Made by a program: the position numbers and the translations under genes. Positions 8,579 through 24,186 of a stretch of 50,409 nucleotides of DNA are shown piece by piece. Positions within the stretch are counted from its first letter, which is position 1; each line of letters opens with the position of its first letter. Origin of the DNA: Gemmatimonas sp. (GTDB lineage: Bacteria; Gemmatimonadota; Gemmatimonadetes; Longimicrobiales; Longimicrobiaceae); contig WHSP01000017.1 in the NCBI GenBank assembly GCA_009380025.1, positions 1 to 50,409 of the forward strand. Direction: 5' to 3'. The notes under the pieces were generated by a model. That model had not been told where the DNA came from. It was given only the letters and a program-made list of their open reading frames with translations, and made no database searches.

Positions 8579-9094
8579 ATGAACCTGCTTGAAGTCTCAC
8601 CGCCAGCGATGCCCGCAACTCGCGAGTTGCGCCTGAACGACGGATCGGTCGTGGTGCTCGACGATCCGGATTTCTGGCGCTTTTGGAAGTCGAAGCTGTT
8701 CATTCACAATCGGCATGTATGTTTGAGGGATACGGAAGGTAGGATCCGAAGGCTGCACCGAGAGGTACTCGAGGTGCGTGATTCGAGAATCGTGCGTTTT
8801 CTGGACAGCGATCCGAGGAACTGCACGCGCTCGAACCTGCAGGTGTTGGATCGCAGCGTTCTGGCGACGGCCCGCCCGGCACAAGGAGCCTGCTCATATA
8901 AGGGCGTTTCTCCCTATCGGGGAAAGTGGCAGGCGACGATCCGGCTGGATGGAAAGCTCAAGTGGTTAGGGAGCTTCGAGTCGGCTGAGGATGCCGCGAA
9001 AGCGTACGATGACGCGGTTCTGCAGCATCGAGGTCGGACCGGCGTCCTGAACTTTCCGAAGCGCGGGCGCCGACGGAAAAAGGAGGCGAGCTGA
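8579..9094 (+). CDS. AP2-domain protein related to HNH homing endonucleases
   Basis: Encodes 171 residues. The C-terminal part (about 106-160) is an AP2 DNA-binding domain ([33 protein letters not shown]), the three-strand fold used by plant ERF factors and phage/bacterial HNH enzymes. The N-terminal 95 residues align with the HNH_3 part of such enzymes: LHREVL is followed by [10 protein letters not shown] and TRSNLQVL. Where active enzymes have DHINGD, this one has RFLDSD, so the catalytic histidine seems lost. It may be a DNA-binding protein derived from a homing endonuclease. A basic tail (KRGRRRKK) ends it. It stands alone with no phage genes around it. Confidence 0.8.
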
Positions 9095-13712: not shown

Positions 13713-14168
13713 ATGGCGCAAAGGGTCCCTCGAAGGCGGCACCCGGTGCAGTTCCGCGTCGCCGTCCTGATCATGCTGGCTGTTTTCCTCCTCGCGGGAG
13801 TGCGGGAGGGAATCGCCGGCTACGTGTGCTTTCAGCATGGTGGCCACGATCACGACAGCCATGCCTTCGCGGGGAGTGGAGACAACCATTCGCCCGGTGA
13901 CAGCCCGGCGGACGCACACGAGGCGCATCACGGAGCTCACGCCGAAGCCAATGATGACGCCTCCACGAGTCACGGTGAGAGCGACCCCTGCTCCTGCGTT
14001 GGCGACTGCCAGACGGGGGAGAGCGGCGCACGCCCGAATCCGGAGCCCTCGCCGTCGGCGACAATCACTCTCACCGCATCCGCGGGTGCCAATCCGGCGT
14101 TCTCCCCCCTTCCCGGCGCCCCCGAGTTCTTCCTTCCCTATTCGAACGGTCCACCCAGCCTAGGCTGA
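13713..14168 (+). CDS. Exported His/Cys-rich protein, possible metal-binding protein
   Basis: Encodes 151 residues. A basic N-terminus and one hydrophobic helix (about 16-36) are followed by a histidine-rich stretch (His at 42, 45, 47, 50, 59, 69, 72, 73, 76, 87), then CSCVGDC (93-99) and a proline-rich tail. The helix would export or anchor it and leave the His/Cys region in the periplasm. Such composition suggests binding of copper, zinc or nickel. The frame extends upstream to 13626, but a promoter-like pair ends six bases before this ATG. It is the first gene of the plus-strand block and precedes the TonB receptor by 93 bases, so a role with that receptor is inferred. Confidence 0.75.
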   Translation: MAQRVPRRRHPVQFRVAVLIMLAVFLLAGVREGIAGYVCFQHGGHDHDSHAFAGSGDNHSPGDSPADAHEAHHGAHAEANDDASTSHGESDPCSCVGDCQTGESGARPNPEPSPSATITLTASAGANPAFSPLPGAPEFFLPYSNGPPSLG

Positions 14169-14261
14169 AGTCCCGATAGGTCTTCACTCGAAGCCGCCGA
14201 CGCCGCGCATTCCTCGCGGTGGCGGTGCTATCCGCAGCTATCCGGATCAGGGTGGGTCGTC

Positions 14262-16601
14262 ATGGAACAACGCGCAAATCGCTTGGCCTTTTGGTGTGTC
14301 GCACGGGTCGGAGTCGCGGCGCTCGTCGCCGTGTCTTTGAACGTCGGGGTAGGCGTCGCACAGGAGGGAACGGGTAGGATACAAGGGCAGGTCATCGGAG
14401 AGGAGACGGGCCAGCCCCTACAGGGTGTTCGGGTGTATGTGGACGGGACGACGCGGGGCGACCTGACGGATCCGCAGGGTCGGTTCGTCGTCGCAGGAGT
14501 CCCAGCGGGGCAGCGGGTGGTCGTCTTCGAGTTCATCGGTCGTGGATCGGTGCGACAGGCGGTGGAGGTCGGTCCGGGCGAACAGGTCGACCTCGATGTG
14601 CGGCTGGGCATCGAAGCATTGCCGATCGATGATGTCGTGGTCAGTGCGACGCGTGAAATGCAGAGCCTGGCGGAGACCGCCGCGAGCGTTGGCATCGTGC
14701 AGAGTTCGGAGATTCGGGAAACCCTGCCCGCCCATCCGTCCGAGATCATGGGCAAGATCCCAGGGGTGTGGGTGAACGTGACCGGTGGTGAGGGGCACGC
14801 GACGGCGATTCGTCAGCCGCTCACCACGGACCCCGTGTACCTCTACCTGGAGGATGGCGTCCCAACGCGCTCGACCGGGTTCTTCAACCACAACGCCTTG
14901 TACGAGATCAATCTGCCGCAGGCGGAACGGATCGAAGTGATCAAGGGGCCGGCGACGGCGCTCTACGGTTCGGACGCGATCGGCGGGACGATCAACGTGG
15001 AGACGCGGCCGGCGGTCGCCGCGCCAGGTCTGGATGCGACGCTGGAAGGAGGGTCCCACGGGTTCATGCGGCTCCTCGGCTCCTACGCGTTCACCTCGGG
15101 CGACAACGGCGTTCGGACCGACGCCAACGTCACCCGAACCGACGGGTGGCGGGATGGGACCGCGTACGATCGGCAGAGCGGCACGATCCGGTGGGACCGG
15201 GTGATCGGAGACGGCCAGACGGTGAAGGCGGTAGCGGCCGCTTCGCGCGTCGATCAACAGACGGCCGGCACGTCGAGGCTCCCCGAGGAAGCCTATCTCG
15301 AGACACCGACAATGAACCTCACGCCGATCTCCTTCCGGGATGTCGGCGCCGCGCGAGTGTCCGTCGAGTACGAGCGCGTTTCCGGGAGTTCGCTGCTGAC
15401 CCTGACTCCCTTCGCGCGTCACAATTCGATGGACCTGCTGCCGAATTGGTCCCTCACGTACGATCCGACGGTCTATGAGACATCGAATCAATCGATCGGA
15501 TTCCTGTCCAAATACCGGCGCGACTTCTCGGAGATGAACGCCCGACTGATCGTCGGTCTGGATGTGGATTGGAGTCCCGGGAAGCGCTACGAACAGACCA
15601 TCGAGCCAGTTCAGAGCGGTTCCATCTTCACCGACTACACTCCGGGAGCGGCGATCTACGACTACGACGTCACGTTTACGGGCCTCTCGCCGTACGTGCA
15701 TCTCGAGGGAAGCCCGCTGGAGCGCCTCCGCGTCACCGCCGGACTCCGCTTCGACCGCCTGGGCTATGACTACGAAAACCACCTGGGTGAGCTGACGACG
15801 GGCCAGCACCGCCGCCCGGGGAGCACGAGCGTCAGTTATACCGAGTTGAGCCCCCACCTCGGCGCGGCGTACGACCTGGGCTTCTCGAGCATCTTTGTTT
15901 CGTATGGCCAGGGCTTCCGGGCGCCCTCGGAGGGGCAGATCTTCAGGCAGGGGGTAGCGCTCAACACGATTGACCTGGAGCCGGTGAAGGCCACGAACTA
16001 CGAAGCGGGGTTCCGAGGGTCGATCGGCGGCAGGCTCTCGTACGAGGCGGCCGCGTACTACATGGAGAAGACGAACGACGTCCTCACGTTCCAGCGTTCC
16101 GACGACGAGCGTGAAACGCAGAACGCCGGGGCGACGCTGCACCGGGGCGTCGAAGTAGGCTTCGGTGTGAGCCTACCCGCGAACCTGACTTTCCAGACGG
16201 CCGTCTCGTACGCGAAGCATACCTACGAGGATTGGGAGCCGAACGAGACCACGGACTACAGCGGCAAGGAGATGGAGGTCGCGCCGCGCAGGATGGGAAA
16301 CACCACGCTTGCGTGGGCGCCCGGTGGGGAAAGGAGCCCGCGCGTCGAGCTCGAGTGGGTGCACCTCGGATCGTACTGGCTCACGCCCGCGAACGAACGA
16401 AAGTACGACGGGCACAACCTGTTGAACCTGACGACCACCGTACCGGTAACACGCAACGTGAGGCTCGTTGGGAAGCTGAACAACGTGACCGACGAGCGTT
16501 ACGCCGAAGCCGCCGCCTTCAGCGCCTTCCGTGGCGTGGAGCTGGCTCCCGGGCTACCGCGTACCTTTTTTGTCGGCGGTCAGATCCAGATCGGAGGTTG
16601 A
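14262..16601 (+). CDS. TonB-dependent outer-membrane receptor
   Basis: Encodes 779 residues. Signal peptide about 1-34; a carboxypeptidase-regulatory-like beta-sandwich (about 38-118, GRIQGQVIGEETGQPLQGV); a plug domain (about 125-235) with the typical ERIEVIKGPATALYG; then a barrel ending in an aromatic-rich terminal strand. It would import a bound ligand across the outer membrane with energy from TonB. The plug contains LEDGVPTRSTGFFNHNALYE, which is not siderophore-specific as far as I can tell. Flanking His-rich and CPCC proteins suggest a metal or metal complex as ligand (inference). The stop is three bases from the next start. Confidence 0.93.
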   Translation: MEQRANRLAFWCVARVGVAALVAVSLNVGVGVAQEGTGRIQGQVIGEETGQPLQGVRVYVDGTTRGDLTDPQGRFVVAGVPAGQRVVVFEFIGRGSVRQAVEVGPGEQVDLDVRLGIEALPIDDVVVSATREMQSLAETAASVGIVQSSEIRETLPAHPSEIMGKIPGVWVNVTGGEGHATAIRQPLTTDPVYLYLEDGVPTRSTGFFNHNALYEINLPQAERIEVIKGPATALYGSDAIGGTINVETRPAVAAPGLDATLEGGSHGFMRLLGSYAFTSGDNGVRTDANVTRTDGWRDGTAYDRQSGTIRWDRVIGDGQTVKAVAAASRVDQQTAGTSRLPEEAYLETPTMNLTPISFRDVGAARVSVEYERVSGSSLLTLTPFARHNSMDLLPNWSLTYDPTVYETSNQSIGFLSKYRRDFSEMNARLIVGLDVDWSPGKRYEQTIEPVQSGSIFTDYTPGAAIYDYDVTFTGLSPYVHLEGSPLERLRVTAGLRFDRLGYDYENHLGELTTGQHRRPGSTSVSYTELSPHLGAAYDLGFSSIFVSYGQGFRAPSEGQIFRQGVALNTIDLEPVKATNYEAGFRGSIGGRLSYEAAAYYMEKTNDVLTFQRSDDERETQNAGATLHRGVEVGFGVSLPANLTFQTAVSYAKHTYEDWEPNETTDYSGKEMEVAPRRMGNTTLAWAPGGERSPRVELEWVHLGSYWLTPANERKYDGHNLLNLTTTVPVTRNVRLVGKLNNVTDERYAEAAAFSAFRGVELAPGLPRTFFVGGQIQIGG

Positions 16602-16603
16602 GC

Positions 16604-17890
16604 ATGTGTCTCCTACGAGGTCACAGTGGATTTCTTGGGACGGCTTTGGGTTTCGTGGCGGTCGTTGTGCTTGCCGGCTGTTCGGATTCCGAGGCGCGTT
16701 CCACTCCTCCGCTCGACCGGGCGACCCTCGCTGAGACCGGCGCGTCCAACCCGACGGTCGCCGTCTCGCCCGCCGGGCTGACCTACGTCGCGTGGGCCGC
16801 GACCGAGGGCGATGAATCCAACGTCCTGTTTTCGCGAACCGTGGCCGATGGAACCTTCTCCGAAGTGGTCCGGGTCAACCACATCGCCGGCGACGCGGCG
16901 CCGCACGCTCAGGCGCCCGCCCAGGTGGCGGCCGGACCCGGGGATGAGATCTACGTCGTCTGGCAGAACCGAAGCGAGGCCGAATGGCTCGACTTCGGTG
17001 CGAGCGACGTCCGCTTCTCCCGCTCGCTGGACGGAGGCGAGACCTGGTTTCCGGCCGTGACCGTCAACGACAACGACCCTAGCATACCGGCCCGTAACAC
17101 TTTCCACGACGTGGAAGTGGCGGACGATGGAACGATCTACGTTTCGTGGATCGACGCCCGAGTCCGGGACGGCTTCCGAGGCGACTACTACCGCGAGACC
17201 GGAGAATCCCCGCCGGTCGATGAGGAGCCGGCCACCGAGATCCGGCTTACGAGTTCGAAAGACGGGGGTGCGACGTTCACCCCGAGTGTCGTCCTCGAAA
17301 CCAACTCCTGCCCGTGCTGCCGTACGTCGATGGCCACCGGTCCGGACGGGATGGTCTACGTGTCGTATCGCAAGGTCTACGGGGACAATATTCGCGACAT
17401 CGCCGTGGTCCGTTCCCTCGACGGTGGGCGGACCTTCGAGGAGCCCGTTCGGGTTCACGACGATGGTTGGTACATCGAGGGCTGTCCGCATGCGGGAGCG
17501 TCCCTGGCCGTAGACCGAGATGGCCGAGTTCACGTTGCGTGGTTCACCGGAGCCCAGGATCACCCCGGCGCCTTCTACGCCGTTTCGGAGGATCAGGGCC
17601 GAAGCTTCGAAGAGCCCGTGCGGTTGACGCCGCCGGGCGCGGTTCCGACTACACAGGTCGCCGTCGCGGCCGACGATGCGGGTACCGTGTGGGTCGCGTG
17701 GGAGGAGACGGACGGTGCCCAGGCGCGCGTCGCCCTGGCGCGCACCCAGAACGGTGACGGGTTGGAACGGGTAGAGCTCGGCGGTCCTACCGGTCTGATC
17801 CCCGCAGTGGCGGCGGCTAATCCGGAGATGGCTCTCGCCTGGCTGGACGGCGAGGCCGTTCGGTTGGTGCGAACGGCCGCGACAGAATAA
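16604..17890 (+). CDS. BNR/Asp-box beta-propeller lipoprotein with CPCC motif
   Basis: Encodes 428 residues. The ATG at 16604 lies two bases after the receptor stop, with GGAGG inside the receptor's last codons, so the two genes are translated together. A signal peptide ends in the lipobox VLAGC (Cys26). Four Asp-box motifs (SLDGGETW, SKDGGATF, SLDGGRTF, SEDQGRSF) indicate a sialidase-type propeller. Sialidase arginines are not evident, so I do not call it a sialidase. CPCC (236-239) and GCPH (293-296) face each other in sequence order on neighbouring blades, and could bind a metal ion. It may be the surface or periplasmic partner of the TonB receptor. Confidence 0.85.
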   Translation: MCLLRGHSGFLGTALGFVAVVVLAGCSDSEARSTPPLDRATLAETGASNPTVAVSPAGLTYVAWAATEGDESNVLFSRTVADGTFSEVVRVNHIAGDAAPHAQAPAQVAAGPGDEIYVVWQNRSEAEWLDFGASDVRFSRSLDGGETWFPAVTVNDNDPSIPARNTFHDVEVADDGTIYVSWIDARVRDGFRGDYYRETGESPPVDEEPATEIRLTSSKDGGATFTPSVVLETNSCPCCRTSMATGPDGMVYVSYRKVYGDNIRDIAVVRSLDGGRTFEEPVRVHDDGWYIEGCPHAGASLAVDRDGRVHVAWFTGAQDHPGAFYAVSEDQGRSFEEPVRLTPPGAVPTTQVAVAADDAGTVWVAWEETDGAQARVALARTQNGDGLERVELGGPTGLIPAVAAANPEMALAWLDGEAVRLVRTAATE

Positions 17891-18033
17891 GGGTCCAGTT
17901 CAAGCTGGCGAGGGCGCCTCCGGGTTTACCAGGTCGACACGTGGACGCTTCGCTAGTGATAGCTTCTTTTTTGGCGGACCGCTTGCGATCACAGGGGGTA
18001 GCAGATCGGCATCAATCGGACCTCGAGGAGTAC

Positions 18034-18972
18034 ATGGAACGCATTCGTATCCCCAACGACGCCACCTACGCCCCGCTGTCTCTACTGGATGTGGCGCTCA
18101 CCGCTCCCATGGTGTCGCGTCTGCTGTTCCGCGCGTCCCTGCCGGGCCGCGCCATCCAGGTGGCGGCGCTGGGCATCTACTTCGGCAGCGCCGCACAGGA
18201 CTGGTGGGAACGGCGAGGCGTTCGAAAGATCGATTTTCTTCGGGTCTACGGCGCCGACGTGCGACACCTGGACGAGATGCCCGAAGAGACCCGGCGACAG
18301 GAGGTTCGACGGTTGGTCGAAGAGGCGAACGATGGCTTCACGGCCGAGCGCCTGCCGCGACCGGAGCTCGCAGCCGAGGTCGATCGACACCTGACTGACT
18401 ACATTGCCGGGATTACCGGCCAGAGGGTCGAAACGAGCACGGAAATCCGCAGCTTTGCCGTAGCGCAGCTCATCTTTCCATTCGCGCTTGGGGCGTGCGA
18501 TTTTCTTTCCGGCGATGTGGCGATCTTCAAGGACACCGGTGTCTTCGAGCCGCACGTCGTCGCCCATGAGTTCGCACACCGGAAGGGATACTGGAAGGAG
18601 CTCGAAGCGCAGGCGCTGGCGTACTTCGCGAATGCCGCGTCCGGCAACCCGATACTCGAGCAATCCGCACGCTGCGAGCGGGTGCACCGACACCTCCGAG
18701 TTCTGGCCGGCGACGATCCGGATCGGTACCCTACGGAGGTCGCGGATGCAGGCTTGCGATCCGAGCTCGAGAAGCACTTCACGGGAATTCGGCCTGTCCC
18801 GGGCGCCGTCGCCGCGAAGGTCGAGACGCTGATGAAACGACTCTACGACGAGCGTATGCGCCTGACGGGACAGAACGGTATCCAGGACTACGATCTCGGC
18901 TTCACCAACTTCCTTTATACTTTCGAGCGCAGCTCCTCCGCGCAGCGACCGGCACCGGAGGCAGTGTCCTGA
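18034..18972 (+). CDS. Putative zinc metallopeptidase (HEFAH; DUF3810-like)
   Basis: Encodes 312 residues from the ATG at 18034, which has GAGGAG close upstream; a GTG at 17941 would add 31 residues. HEFAH (178-182) followed by KELEAQALAY gives a zincin HExxH site with a downstream glutamate (189 or 191) as third ligand, the layout seen in DUF3810 and related membrane peptidases. Hydrophobic stretches at about 37-52 and 141-155 could associate with the membrane, but no classical signal peptide is present. It sits 143 bases after the CPCC lipoprotein and 17 bases before the next gene, so it is probably in the same operon. Its substrate is unknown. Confidence 0.7.
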   Translation: MERIRIPNDATYAPLSLLDVALTAPMVSRLLFRASLPGRAIQVAALGIYFGSAAQDWWERRGVRKIDFLRVYGADVRHLDEMPEETRRQEVRRLVEEANDGFTAERLPRPELAAEVDRHLTDYIAGITGQRVETSTEIRSFAVAQLIFPFALGACDFLSGDVAIFKDTGVFEPHVVAHEFAHRKGYWKELEAQALAYFANAASGNPILEQSARCERVHRHLRVLAGDDPDRYPTEVADAGLRSELEKHFTGIRPVPGAVAAKVETLMKRLYDERMRLTGQNGIQDYDLGFTNFLYTFERSSSAQRPAPEAVS

Positions 18973-18989
18973 ACAACGGTTCGATTTTC

Positions 18990-21002
18990 ATGAAGACACT
19001 CTCGTTGGGAATTCTCGCGTTTGCTATCGTTCCCATCAGCGTGGCGGCGCAGGCGACGACTCCAACGGTCGGCAGCATCATCGTTCACCCAACGGATCGG
19101 ACAATGTTGGTTGGCGATACGCTTCACCTCCAGGTTGAAGCTTTCGACGCGAACGGCGATCCCCTACCCGAAGCGCAGGTCAGATTTAATCCGGCCGGTG
19201 CTTTCTTCGAGGCATCGGTCGATTCGACGGGGCTCGTGACATCCGGTTCAACGGGGACGATTCCCATCGGCGTGGCCGTGATCGTGCCCGGTTCGGACCC
19301 GTACGTCGAGCGCGTCGACATTGAGATGGTGCCGGGCCCCGCCGCAACAGTGGAAGTTTCCCCGAGCCGGCTCTACCTGGCCGTCGGACAGCGGGTGAAG
19401 CTCGATGCGACCTCGCGATCGGCCCTGGGCGACGCGCGAGAGGACACGTTTACGTGGCAGAGTACGGCCCCGGCGGTAATCGAAGTCGACGATTACGGGA
19501 GGGTGGTGGCCGTCGAACCCGGCGAGGCGACGGTGACGGCGACGACGGGAGCGGCCTCCGGCGATGTGATCATCGAGGTCGTACCGAATCGTGTGGCAGA
19601 GATCGAGCTCACCCCATCGGCGACCGAGGTACGGCAGGGCGACGTCATCCGTTTTCAGGCGACGCCCCACGACGAGCAGGGCGCAGTGGTCGAAGGGTTG
19701 ACGCCCTCTTTCAGCTTCGCGCCAGGGCACGGCTCCATCGATCCCGAGGGCGCCTTCGTCGCCTACCGTCCCGGTGAGTATGTGGTGACCGCCAGCTTCG
19801 GCGATCGGACCGCGGACGCTCTCGTCGTCGTGGAACCGCGCAATGTCAGACGACCTCTGGAGGTCGTGGGCCGTCTACCTCGCACTGCGTTCACGACCGA
19901 GGAGGTGTGGGCCCATCCGACGGAGGAGGTGGTCTACCTCGGCACGGGCTCGGGTGGCGATCGGATGTACGCGATCGACGTCTCCGACCCCACCGATCCA
20001 GTCGTCACGGATTCCCTCGTCGCCGACACGCGCCGGGTGAACGATGTGATGACGACGCCGAACGGCCGCCATCTGGTCCACACCCGGGAGGGCGCAAGCA
20101 GCCGAAGAAACGGGATCGTGGTCGCGTCCCTCGAGGATCCACGTCATCCGCAGGCCATCACGGAGTTCACGGAGGGTGTAACGGCGGGTGTTCACTCGGC
20201 CTTCGTCTACGAGCAGCCGGCTTTCGGCACGCACGTCTACTTGACGAACAACGGCACCAACGCGATGCACGTGATCGATATAAGCGACCCGACGAACCCG
20301 CAGGACGTGGCGCAGTGGCGGTCACCGAGCCCCAATGCAGGCGGCTCGCTCCACGACATCGCTGTTCAGGACGGCTTGGCCTACCTGAGCTACTGGAACG
20401 ACGGGCTCATCGTTCTGGATGTCGGCAATGGCGTCCGGGAGGGCAGCCCATCGAGTCCGCAGTTCGTGACGCAGTACAAGTACGATCTGAACGAGATGTA
20501 CCGGAACGTCGAGGTCGACGGCGGTCCAGGATTCATTCGGGGGACCCACACCGCCTGGCGGTACAGGGATTACGTGTTCATCGCCGATGAGGTGTTCGCC
20601 AGCCAGCCGCAGCGCGGGACGCGGGACGCCTCCGCGACTCGTGCCTGGGGGAATCTCCAGGTCATCGACGTTTCCGATTGGGAAAACCCTCGGTCGGTCG
20701 CGTGGTATACTCCCGAGGACGGGGGCGTTCACAACCTCTGGGTGGAGGACGATCTGCTGTACATGGGCGCCTACACGTCTGGCTTACGCGTCTTCGACGT
20801 CTCCGGCGAGCTCCGGGGCGACCTGCGCGCTCAGGGGCGGGAGGTCGCCCACCTGGACACGGCGGATATGGAGGGCCGTGTACAGAACCAGGCGATGACG
20901 TGGGGGGTCGTCGTGAAAGACGAACTTGCTTACGTCAACGACATGCACAACGGTCTGTGGATCGTACGGTTCGACCCGGCTCCCCCTACCGGTGGCCAGT
21001 GA
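18990..21002 (+). CDS. Secreted Ig-like and LVIVD-repeat surface protein
   Basis: Encodes 670 residues with a signal peptide (cleaved near VAAQA, about 22). Three Ig-like/BIG2-type repeats span about 28-290. A beta-propeller of LVIVD repeats follows (about 300-665), marked by MYAIDVSDPTDP, MHVIDISDPTNP, LQVIDVSDWENP and LRVFDVSG. LVIVD proteins are extracellular, common in marine and soil bacteria, and of unknown function. The propeller contains several surface His pairs (HSAF, HDIAV, HTAW, HNLW) at equivalent blade positions. It starts 17 bases after the peptidase gene. There is no C-terminal sorting sequence that I recognise. Confidence 0.88.
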   Translation: MKTLSLGILAFAIVPISVAAQATTPTVGSIIVHPTDRTMLVGDTLHLQVEAFDANGDPLPEAQVRFNPAGAFFEASVDSTGLVTSGSTGTIPIGVAVIVPGSDPYVERVDIEMVPGPAATVEVSPSRLYLAVGQRVKLDATSRSALGDAREDTFTWQSTAPAVIEVDDYGRVVAVEPGEATVTATTGAASGDVIIEVVPNRVAEIELTPSATEVRQGDVIRFQATPHDEQGAVVEGLTPSFSFAPGHGSIDPEGAFVAYRPGEYVVTASFGDRTADALVVVEPRNVRRPLEVVGRLPRTAFTTEEVWAHPTEEVVYLGTGSGGDRMYAIDVSDPTDPVVTDSLVADTRRVNDVMTTPNGRHLVHTREGASSRRNGIVVASLEDPRHPQAITEFTEGVTAGVHSAFVYEQPAFGTHVYLTNNGTNAMHVIDISDPTNPQDVAQWRSPSPNAGGSLHDIAVQDGLAYLSYWNDGLIVLDVGNGVREGSPSSPQFVTQYKYDLNEMYRNVEVDGGPGFIRGTHTAWRYRDYVFIADEVFASQPQRGTRDASATRAWGNLQVIDVSDWENPRSVAWYTPEDGGVHNLWVEDDLLYMGAYTSGLRVFDVSGELRGDLRAQGREVAHLDTADMEGRVQNQAMTWGVVVKDELAYVNDMHNGLWIVRFDPAPPTGGQ

Positions 21003-21050
21003 AGGCCAGCAGCTCTCTGACCCCCTGAGACGACGAACCCAGTTAACGCG

Positions 21051-21680
21051 ATGACGGAACGGACGGGCTTCAGCGTACGATCGGCAGGGTTGATCGTGCT
21101 CGGTGCGATCATCGGGGTCGTTGGGCTGAGCGCACTACGCTTTGCGGGCCAGCCGCCCCACGAGCACGTTCACTACCACGCCAACTGGGCGATCTTCGTC
21201 GACAGTGAGCGCCTGGATTTGACGGACGACTGGTACATGGAGGATGTCTTCCAGTGCCTGGCCGATCCTTCCCAGCAGCGGGCTGAGGATCGAGCCCACA
21301 TGCACGAGAACAACCAGGACGTCGTGCATGTCCACGCTTCCGGCGTCAGCTGGGATCACTTGCTGGCGAACCTCGGCTTCGGGGTGGGGGACGACTACCT
21401 GGAAACCGATCGCGAGCGCCTGGAAGAGGATGATCAGAACTCGGTGAAGTTCGTATTGAACGGGCGGCCGGTGAGCTCGATCCGGAACCTGCCGATCGGC
21501 GACGAGGACCGCCTCCTGATCAGCTACGGGACGCAGACCATCAAAGAGGTGATGGAAAGCGAATTTCCGGTGGTCGAGAAGAGCGCCGGAGAGTACAACG
21601 TGTTGCCGGATCCGGCGAGTTGTTCGGGACAGCAGGCAGAGACACTGGGCGAACGAATTCGCCGAGCAGTCTGGTACTGA
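21051..21680 (+). CDS. Membrane-anchored histidine-rich protein (HxHxHxH)
   Basis: Encodes 209 residues. One N-terminal helix (about 13-30) anchors it, leaving the rest in the periplasm. Right after the helix comes HEHVHYH (37-43), then Cys69, HMH (83-85), HVH (93-95) and His103, a dense set of potential metal ligands in a domain of under 110 residues. The C-terminal half (about 130-175) looks like a small beta domain. I recall similar uncharacterised proteins in environmental genomes but cannot name a family. It ends the plus-strand block, 48 bases after the LVIVD gene. A copper- or zinc-binding role is inferred from composition and neighbours. Confidence 0.75.
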   Translation: MTERTGFSVRSAGLIVLGAIIGVVGLSALRFAGQPPHEHVHYHANWAIFVDSERLDLTDDWYMEDVFQCLADPSQQRAEDRAHMHENNQDVVHVHASGVSWDHLLANLGFGVGDDYLETDRERLEEDDQNSVKFVLNGRPVSSIRNLPIGDEDRLLISYGTQTIKEVMESEFPVVEKSAGEYNVLPDPASCSGQQAETLGERIRRAVWY

Positions 21681-21722: not shown

Positions 21723-22922
21723 TCACGAGCTGAAGTAGGCGGCGTTTTCATCGATGTAGCCGTGCGTCAGATCGCAGCCGAAGCCGGTCGCGGAACCGTT
21801 TCCGATGCCGAGATCGACGCGGATCTCGACGGGGTCCCCTGAGAGCTCTCTTCGCAAGACCGACTCGTCGTAGTCGAGCTTTCGACACTCAGCGAAGACC
21901 GCCACGTCGTTGATCCAGACCGCGGTCATCGCGGGGTCCTGTTGGACGTCGAAGCACTTCCCAACGGCCATTAGAACCCTACCGACATTCGGATCCGCAC
22001 CAAACGCCATCGTTTTCACCAGCGGCGAGTTGATGATCGACTTGGCAGCCTTGCGGGCCTGATCGCGGTCTGCCGCACCCTGCACGGCGGCGCGGAGCAG
22101 CTTCGTCGCCCCCTCGCCGTCCCGCGCCATCATCTCGGCCATGCGGATGCAACCAGCCTCGAGCACACGCCGAAATGCACCTTCATCGACCTCGCCGGCC
22201 AGTCCATTGGCAAGGACGACACACGTGTCGGACGTACTGGTATCGGAGTCGATCGATAGCATGTTGAACGAATCCTCGACGGCCGAACGAAGCGCGCTGT
22301 CGAGCGCCGCGGCGTCGAGCCGGGCATCGGTGAAGATGTAGGCGAGCATGGTCGCCATGTTGGGCTCGATCATTCCGGAGCCTTTGCCCACCCAGGTGAT
22401 CGTGGCTCCGCCGACCGAGGCGGAGATCGCCTTCGGCCGTGTGTCGGTCGTCATGATGCCTTCGGCCCCTACCAGCGGATCGTCAACCAGCTCGTTGCCG
22501 ATGCCGCGTAGGCCTTCCTCGATCATTTCGATAGCGAGTTGCCTGCCGATGACCCCGGTCGAGCTCATCAGGACGTCATCGGCGCGGAGGCCGAGCTCGG
22601 CGGACGCGGCAATCCCCATTCGGCGCGCGTTCAGGATGCCGGTCTCGCCCGTGGCCACGTTGCTGAGCTTGCTGTTCACGACGATCGCCTGCAGGCGTCC
22701 GTTCTCGAGTAGCTCCCGGCCGACGACGATCGGGGCGCCGGGGAAGCGGTTGCGAGTGAAGACGCCAGCCGCTGCAGCAGGGACGCTGGAGACGAACACG
22801 GAGAGGTCCCTGGCGACGGGCTTCAATCCGCAGTTGCGGCTGGCACACCGGAAGCCGGCCGGTAAGATCGGACGGGCGTGGAATTCCATAAGGATGCTTG
22901 GCTCGCATCGAAGACGGAGCAT
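21723..22922 (-). CDS. argJ: Glutamate N-acetyltransferase / ornithine acetyltransferase
   Basis: Encodes 399 residues, the usual ArgJ size. The enzyme moves the acetyl group from N-acetylornithine to glutamate in the cyclic arginine pathway. Conserved elements are SSTGVIG (oxyanion Thr-Gly), GKGSGMIEPNMATML with the self-cleaving, nucleophilic Thr of ATML, DSDTSTSDT, and the C-terminal YIDENA. The usual N-terminal SGNANACTG is SKLSNVATG here, so it belongs to a divergent subgroup or has altered substrate use. The ATG at 22922 is used; an ATG at 22889 (MEFHARP) is equally possible. It converges on the plus-strand block, with 42 bases between the stops. Confidence 0.88.
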   Translation of the reverse strand: MLRLRCEPSILMEFHARPILPAGFRCASRNCGLKPVARDLSVFVSSVPAAAAGVFTRNRFPGAPIVVGRELLENGRLQAIVVNSKLSNVATGETGILNARRMGIAASAELGLRADDVLMSSTGVIGRQLAIEMIEEGLRGIGNELVDDPLVGAEGIMTTDTRPKAISASVGGATITWVGKGSGMIEPNMATMLAYIFTDARLDAAALDSALRSAVEDSFNMLSIDSDTSTSDTCVVLANGLAGEVDEGAFRRVLEAGCIRMAEMMARDGEGATKLLRAAVQGAADRDQARKAAKSIINSPLVKTMAFGADPNVGRVLMAVGKCFDVQQDPAMTAVWINDVAVFAECRKLDYDESVLRRELSGDPVEIRVDLGIGNGSATGFGCDLTHGYIDENAAYFSS

Positions 22923-23229: not shown

Positions 23230-24186
23230 GTGAGGCTAGGTCGGTTCGCACGGTATGCCTGGGGAGTGCTAGGGCTCAACCTGGGGGTCATCCTGTGGGG
23301 AGCGTTCGTCCGTGCGACGGGCTCCGGTGCCGGATGTGGTAGCCATTGGCCGCTGTGCAATGGCGATGTCGTCCCTCGCACAGCGCAGGTCGAGACCTTG
23401 ATCGAGTTCGCGCACCGCGCCACGAGCGGGATCGCGCTGCTCGCAGTCGTCGGGCTTTTCCTGTGGGCGCGAAGGGAGTACGATCCTGGCCACCGCGTGC
23501 GGGCCGGCGCCACCTCCTCGCTCCTTTTCATCGTCATCGAGGCGCTCCTCGGCGCGGGGTTGGTCCTCTTCGAGCTCGTTGCCGACAACGATACCGCGCT
23601 GCGGGCGTTCTCGATGGTCGCCCACCTGCTCAACACATTCGTCCTCGTCACGGTCCTGGCGATCACCGCGTGGTGGGCGTCCGGTGGACCCCCGATCGAC
23701 CTTCGTGCACGTCCCAGTCGCGCAGTCGGCCTCGGCGTCGCCCTCACCGCGCTCGCCTTTGTTGGCGCCACCGGTGCGATCGCCGCTCTCGGAGACACGC
23801 TCTATCCCTCCGCCTCCCTCGGCGATGGGCTCCGTGACAGCTTCTCCAGCGAGTCGCACCCCCTCATCCAACTGAGGAAGTATCATCCCCTTGCCGCTGT
23901 CCTCGTTGGCATCTACGTCGTCGCGCTCGGTCGGTATCTCACGCGGGCGACGCTTTCCAGTCCCGTCCGGATCCTGGCCGCGATGGCAACCGGCCTCTAC
24001 GTAAGCCAGCTCCTTGCCGGCACCGTGAACATCGTTCTTCTCGCTCCGGTCTGGCTTCAGCTGATCCACCTCCTTCTGGCGGACCTGCTTTGGATCGCGG
24101 TCGTCCTGCTGGCGGCTACCTCCCTCGCTTCCACCTCGATCGAGCGGAGCGAGCCCATTGGACCAAGGCTGATCGTCAAGTCGTGA
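23230..24186 (+). CDS. ctaA: Heme A synthase (COX15/CtaA family)
   Basis: Encodes 318 residues with about eight transmembrane helices. The enzyme oxidises the C8 methyl of heme O to make heme A for aa3-type cytochrome c oxidase. Key residues are visible: the extracytoplasmic Cys36 and Cys43 (GAGCGSHWPLC) as in Bacillus CtaA, and heme-ligand histidines in EFAHRATSG, VAHLLNTF, KYHPLA and LIHLLLAD. A GTG start at 23230 follows GAGGGA. No ctaB or oxidase subunits are adjacent. Its nearness to the putative metal-handling block, which could serve copper-dependent oxidase assembly, is suggestive only. Confidence 0.93.
   Translation: MRLGRFARYAWGVLGLNLGVILWGAFVRATGSGAGCGSHWPLCNGDVVPRTAQVETLIEFAHRATSGIALLAVVGLFLWARREYDPGHRVRAGATSSLLFIVIEALLGAGLVLFELVADNDTALRAFSMVAHLLNTFVLVTVLAITAWWASGGPPIDLRARPSRAVGLGVALTALAFVGATGAIAALGDTLYPSASLGDGLRDSFSSESHPLIQLRKYHPLAAVLVGIYVVALGRYLTRATLSSPVRILAAMATGLYVSQLLAGTVNIVLLAPVWLQLIHLLLADLLWIAVVLLAATSLASTSIERSEPIGPRLIVKS

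Follow-up and report, generated by a model that had tools for sequence, protein, structure and literature searches.

A six-gene stretch and its conserved core

The window, by which we mean the whole 50,409-nucleotide stretch of Gemmatimonas sp. DNA analysed here, carries six co-oriented genes on its + strand, which we designate A to F. All six were found at the positions and in the order given by the original prediction, with the same B-C gap and the same motifs. Gene A (13713..14168) encodes a short leader peptide of CruR/CutF type, rich in His and Cys and predicted to be exported. It is separated by an intergenic region of 93 bases (14169..14261) from gene B (14262..16601), which encodes a TonB-dependent receptor with Pfam matches to the barrel (4.9e-37) and the plug (1e-16) and a CarboxypepD_reg-like N-terminal domain. 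Gene C (16604..17890) encodes a sialidase-fold beta-propeller lipoprotein with BNR repeats, and only two bases lie between the stop of B and the start of C, given that C starts at the ATG at 16604. Further downstream are gene D (17941..18972), coding for a DUF3810 HExxH protein (motif HEFAH; PF12725, 9.8e-10), gene E (18990..21002), coding for a surface protein that matches Big_2 and the LVIVD repeat, and gene F (21051..21680), coding for a membrane-anchored HxHxHxH protein (HEHVHYH) that matches no Pfam or NCBIfam family. The gaps C-D, D-E and E-F measure 50, 17 and 48 bases, and one strand is used throughout.

We scored B as present at E<=1e-60 in 198 genomes of the same class and in a wider set of 249 genomes of the phylum, and found it in 19 and 22 of them, respectively. 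C directly follows B in 19 of the 20 assessable genomes (G160 and G260 were left out of this count because the contig ends at B), the exception being G267, in which A and C are both missing around the B homologue. Of 19 cases in which the upstream side could be assessed, 18 have an A-type leader ahead of B; 17 of these fit the strict pattern, and the leader of G170 has a variant Cys motif. A genome fetched once the pattern had been set, G222, also has A, B and C. The order leader-receptor-C is kept with more distant receptors as well (G039, G118, G140, G152 and G158); of these, G140 has an additional TlpA gene ahead of C. In G180 the leader is followed by CopC and C, CopC taking the receptor's place. 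By comparison of these genomes, the conserved unit is made up of the first three genes only. Of the neighbourhood proposed originally, A-B-C thus recurs in relatives and D-E-F does not.

Leader, receptor and propeller

The product of gene A has 151 residues if it starts at the ATG at 13713, or 140 if the start is the GTG near 13746. It contains the motif CSCVGDC, followed by 47 residues from the last cysteine to PP, three further residues and the stop; NGPP, within the C-terminus LPYSNGPPSLG, is reached after 45 residues. C39, C93, C95, P142, P147 and P148 are invariant among 15 homologues, and in 18 of 19 leader sequences 46-51 residues (mode 47) separate a CxC-type motif with a final Cys from a PP, which lies 2-6 residues from the C-terminal end. 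The Cys-to-PP pattern gave 22 matches in the six frames of 0.72 Mb of fetched DNA, each heading such a cassette; since this DNA was chosen for its cassettes, the count is a specificity control within loci and not a genome-wide rate.

Judged by its sequence, gene A has the architecture of the CruR/CutF copper-sensing leader peptides. Leader-controlled copper receptors are already known (PMC9426467, PMC12914433). In the CruR-CrtA(BfrG)-PepSY_TM system of Bordetella pertussis (PMC9426467, PMC12914433) we find the same short exported leader with a Cys motif, about 45 residues and APP/GPP close to the C-terminus. CruR itself carries CXXC and RAPP 45 residues apart, this spacing matters for regulation, and the leader switches its receptor operon off with copper (PMC9426467). 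The two systems also have in common a C>G bubble at the leader end, a TonB receptor as the next gene and ties to heme-copper oxidase. They differ in that A has CxCxxxC for CXXC and falls below the DUF2946 cut-off, in that B lies outside the CrtA group by profile, and in that a CxCC propeller and TlpA stand in for PepSY_TM. Against DUF2946 (PF11162) gene A scores 11 bits for a gathering cut-off of 23.7, and its best homologue reaches E 0.029; because of this score we call A CruR-like and not a member. We rejected assignment to DUF2946 or CopL, as the matches are sub-threshold and the curated cut-offs are not reached.

CutF-like proteins have been defined as shorter than 150 aa, with a signal peptide, a PP in the last 15 residues and a same-strand gene within 1 kb (PMC9973294). 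The PP and the same-strand neighbour of gene A fit this rule set, which is shared with CutF-CutO of Rhodobacter capsulatus, and a putative signal peptide was judged by eye; the longer form of A exceeds the length limit by one residue, whereas the GTG form falls within it. TonB receptors are frequent neighbours of CutF-like leaders (PMC9973294). Unlike CutF-CutO, however, the window has no stable stem-loop before B: folding of the A-B intergenic region gave z = -0.5. We therefore rejected a stem-loop of the CutF type, for which z falls below -2 at only two cassettes (L041 and L052), and the lack of a stable stem-loop leads us to favour the CruR mode over the CutF mode.

Spanning the 3' end of A and the first part of the A-B gap on the + strand is a C-rich, G-poor stretch (14038..14194), with 37-47% C against 18-23% G. 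The difference between C and G peaks at 31% at the stop of A, a value that only 0.05% of surrounding sense coding windows reach, and a comparable C>G extreme is found near the leader's stop at most other cassettes. In the CruR system, Rho-dependent termination is marked by a C>G bubble that extends from within the leader to the gap behind it (PMC9426467), and with its similar signature the stretch is a candidate Rho-utilisation site, to which the proline-rich code of A may partly contribute. A scan for promoters and terminators returned sites no more numerous than in shuffles.

Receptor B carries conserved histidines in two plug motifs, EGH (H179) and FFNHNALYE (H210). Compared by profile with solved receptors, it comes closest to PqqU (1.7e-61), followed by CirA (1.6e-35), BtuB (1.3e-31) and CrtA (9RVQ; 4.4e-28). 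Since CrtA is not the closest of these, we rejected B as a CrtA-group receptor. OprC (TIGR01778), likewise a TonB receptor in a copper setting, was also rejected, the score of B being 29.6 bits where the cut-off is 472.45. Indeed, B reaches none of the curated receptor-family cut-offs, which places it outside the B12 and carbohydrate groups, as the original prediction required of a metal receptor. By these sequence scores, B is a group of its own.

An AlphaFold2 model of C, built from two sequences (pLDDT 74.8, pTM 0.79), retrieved sialidases in a Foldseek search (4e-12), and BT3686 at a TM score of 0.62. Apart from C2 and the lipobox C26, the only cysteines of C are C236, C238 and C239 in the motif CPCC and C294 in GCPH. 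These four occur without exception in all 21 homologues from the phylum and from Calditrichia, and are also kept in plasmid homologues of Roseobacteraceae and Bacteroidota, except for one record shortened beside a transposase gene. R256, R264, P295, G298 and W313 are equally invariant. In the secondary structure of the model, H168 lies on the first strand of a blade, and C236-C239 and C294 lie just before that position in successive blades, so placed that the cysteines and H168 may meet in space. Sialidase active sites occupy this first-strand position as well. The BNR/Asp-box propeller fold is shared with GH33 and with proteins named "sialidase family protein", but we rejected C as a GH33 sialidase, as the RIP motif is absent and CxCC...C and copper neighbours are found instead. 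Nor does C reach the curated cut-off of PDIAV_lipo (NF053835), scoring 47.5 against 90.

A TlpA-like thioredoxin gene adjoins C in many genomes, and in G039 (L104 8825-10765) propeller and TlpA thioredoxin domain are found in one 646-residue protein. Both the adjacency and the fusion argue for a location of C on the periplasmic side. In the open-access literature searched, we found no description of a CxCC propeller that has a copper role and is linked to TlpA and a receptor. To this extent the original claim that no such system had been described stands for the propeller partner, and not for the leader-receptor logic, which was published with CruR-CrtA.

Copper genes around the cassettes and a model for A-B-C

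Copper genes of the kinds sought on the strength of the original prediction, namely Sco, copper ATPase and oxidase genes, are present at other cassettes or at homologue loci. The G093 cassette is flanked by genes for a CopA-type ATPase, a CsoR-type repressor and a cupredoxin, and MbnP and MbnH lie by a member of the cassette family in G132. In G267 (C93; L144 6034-13617), the B homologue (49% identity) is directly followed by genes for a membrane protein that looks by eye to be of 4Fe-4S type, for a CoxB-like protein and for COX1 and Sco, and a Sco gene is also found near the Calditrichia pair. A route to oxidase assembly, as first proposed, is therefore plausible.

Outside the phylum, homologues of C lie beside multicopper oxidase, CopC/CopD, plastocyanin, CusA and copper ATPase genes on plasmids, whose hosts are Roseobacter, Roseovarius, Phaeobacter, Sulfitobacter, Pseudosulfitobacter, Runella and Adhaeribacter. 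These plasmid homologues are annotated as "sialidase", and their loci are copper resistance loci. The homologue in Salipiger has a mercury operon and fragments of multicopper oxidase as neighbours, that in Spirosoma lies beside a DUF326 gene, and that in Marinovum about 3 kb from a multicopper oxidase gene. On a Hymenobacter plasmid the layout is that of CruR, with a leader that contains Cys, a receptor resembling B and a PepSY protein. In Nitrososphaera viennensis, a "putative sialidase" (by name) is depicted in the copper-limitation clusters together with CopC/D and DsbD genes (PMC7785015).

Gene context and motifs are what ties the cassette to copper, and for A, B and C they support the idea of copper uptake well. 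We consider it likely that A-B-C is a copper-limitation operon that imports copper under CruR-type leader control, with C capturing the metal and a TlpA-type protein acting as reductant. When copper is short, translation of A would stall at its C-terminal NGPP, with the ribosome covering the C-rich Rho site, and this would allow B and C to be made. When copper is present, it would bind the CxCxxxC of nascent A and relieve the stall, and Rho would end transcription before B. The receptor would carry copper, free or chelated, over the outer membrane. On the periplasmic side, the propeller would hold the metal with three cysteines in one inter-blade loop, the fourth in the next and histidines nearby, its cysteines being kept reduced by the TlpA-type thioredoxin, and would hand the metal on towards cuproenzymes such as heme-copper oxidase.

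A different function may be considered for the same metal. If A-B-C handles copper for protection, C would sequester periplasmic Cu(I) and B would import something for defence or repair. C could indeed serve in detoxification, since outside the phylum it is found mostly beside copper efflux and oxidase genes, in islands of that kind, and in G084, G102 and G160 the MsrP-MsrQ genes for methionine sulfoxide reductase, a methionine repair function, directly precede the receptor or the propeller. Nevertheless, we judge this reading unlikely: TonB receptors import, the CruR leader turns its receptor operon off with copper (PMC9426467), and the B homologue of G267 sits beside COX1 and Sco. On our reading, A-B-C probably brings copper into the cell.

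The same architecture serving nickel, cobalt or zinc seems to us distinctly improbable. It would fit the His-rich composition of A, given that some CutF-like proteins with a His-only motif head nickel/cobalt genes (PMC9973294), and the siroheme and CbiX-like genes that adjoin C in G014 (by eye). However, the CxC of A is invariant, Cys-type leaders are mostly copper ones (PMC9973294), and the metal neighbours that recur are copper genes.

More improbable still is a receptor for vitamin B12 or a PQQ-like cofactor with a BtuG-like surface propeller as its lid. PqqU, CirA and BtuB are the nearest solved receptors of B, and in the BtuB-BtuG system of Bacteroides a TonB receptor likewise pairs with a beta-propeller surface lipoprotein (PMC10404256). 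Yet B scores only 114 bits against the BtuB model (TIGR01779; cut-off 599.7), for which we rejected it, and 83.5 bits against the PqqU model (cut-off 1200); with no Rfam match in the window, there is no recognised cobalamin riboswitch. The propeller of C is of another type, sialidase-like and with conserved cysteines, BtuG is not among the structural matches listed, and C has copper neighbours and, in G039, forms one polypeptide with a TlpA domain.

Copper import by A-B-C would have wider implications, because only a few copper receptors have been described and copper acquisition at the outer membrane is poorly known (PMC12914433). The cassette adds a candidate subfamily of copper receptors from a different phylum and would extend a leader mechanism for copper sensing known so far mainly from Pseudomonadota and Bacteroidota. 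It also points to a function for a family of propellers that carry a sialidase annotation: the CxCC propeller looks like an undescribed copper-handling family that is misnamed in databases. We give about even chances to the broader proposal that it is a new cross-phylum copper-carrying family, working with TlpA-type reductants in both import and resistance, and serving in this phylum as the acceptor dedicated to a TonB copper receptor that is controlled by a CruR-type leader.

Genes D, E and F and the surroundings

Despite the short gaps and common strand in the window, a single system of all six genes has next to no chance of being correct and was rejected, since other genomes do not place D, E or F next to A-B-C. 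A close orthologue of D is present in two cassette genomes, in both of them on a different contig. E is one of many paralogues, whose family was detected in 145 of the 198 genomes at sites remote from the cassettes, and F occurs in 7 of 198, in unrelated contexts. D, E and F may be co-transcribed passengers of A-B-C, and for D, immediately downstream, such a role is possible.

A heme A synthase gene (COX15-CtaA, 23230-24186; profile match 4.3e-36) does lie 1.55 kb beyond F, as originally noted. We nevertheless rejected its linkage to the cassette, because argJ (21723-22922, named by eye) intervenes on the opposite strand and the neighbourhoods of other cassettes yielded no CtaA. Close to F lie heme A synthase in the window and, in G053 (L094 6375-6977), a UbiA-family gene, possibly for heme O synthase; this proximity to genes of heme-synthesis type in two cases of seven is perhaps due to chance.

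The family of E (window 18990-21002; G000:C61) is sometimes arranged in tandem, for example in G152:C64. The MsrP-MsrQ loci (L042, L046 and L096) belong to one family of the class. Marine Roseobacteraceae carry the propeller gene on conjugative and other plasmids (L114, L115, L116, L117 and L123) with copper and, once, mercury resistance genes. No relatives were found in the viral contigs searched. Elsewhere in the window, positions 8579-9094 encode a bacterial protein that resembles, by eye, an AP2-domain protein of the HNH/AP2 homing-endonuclease type.
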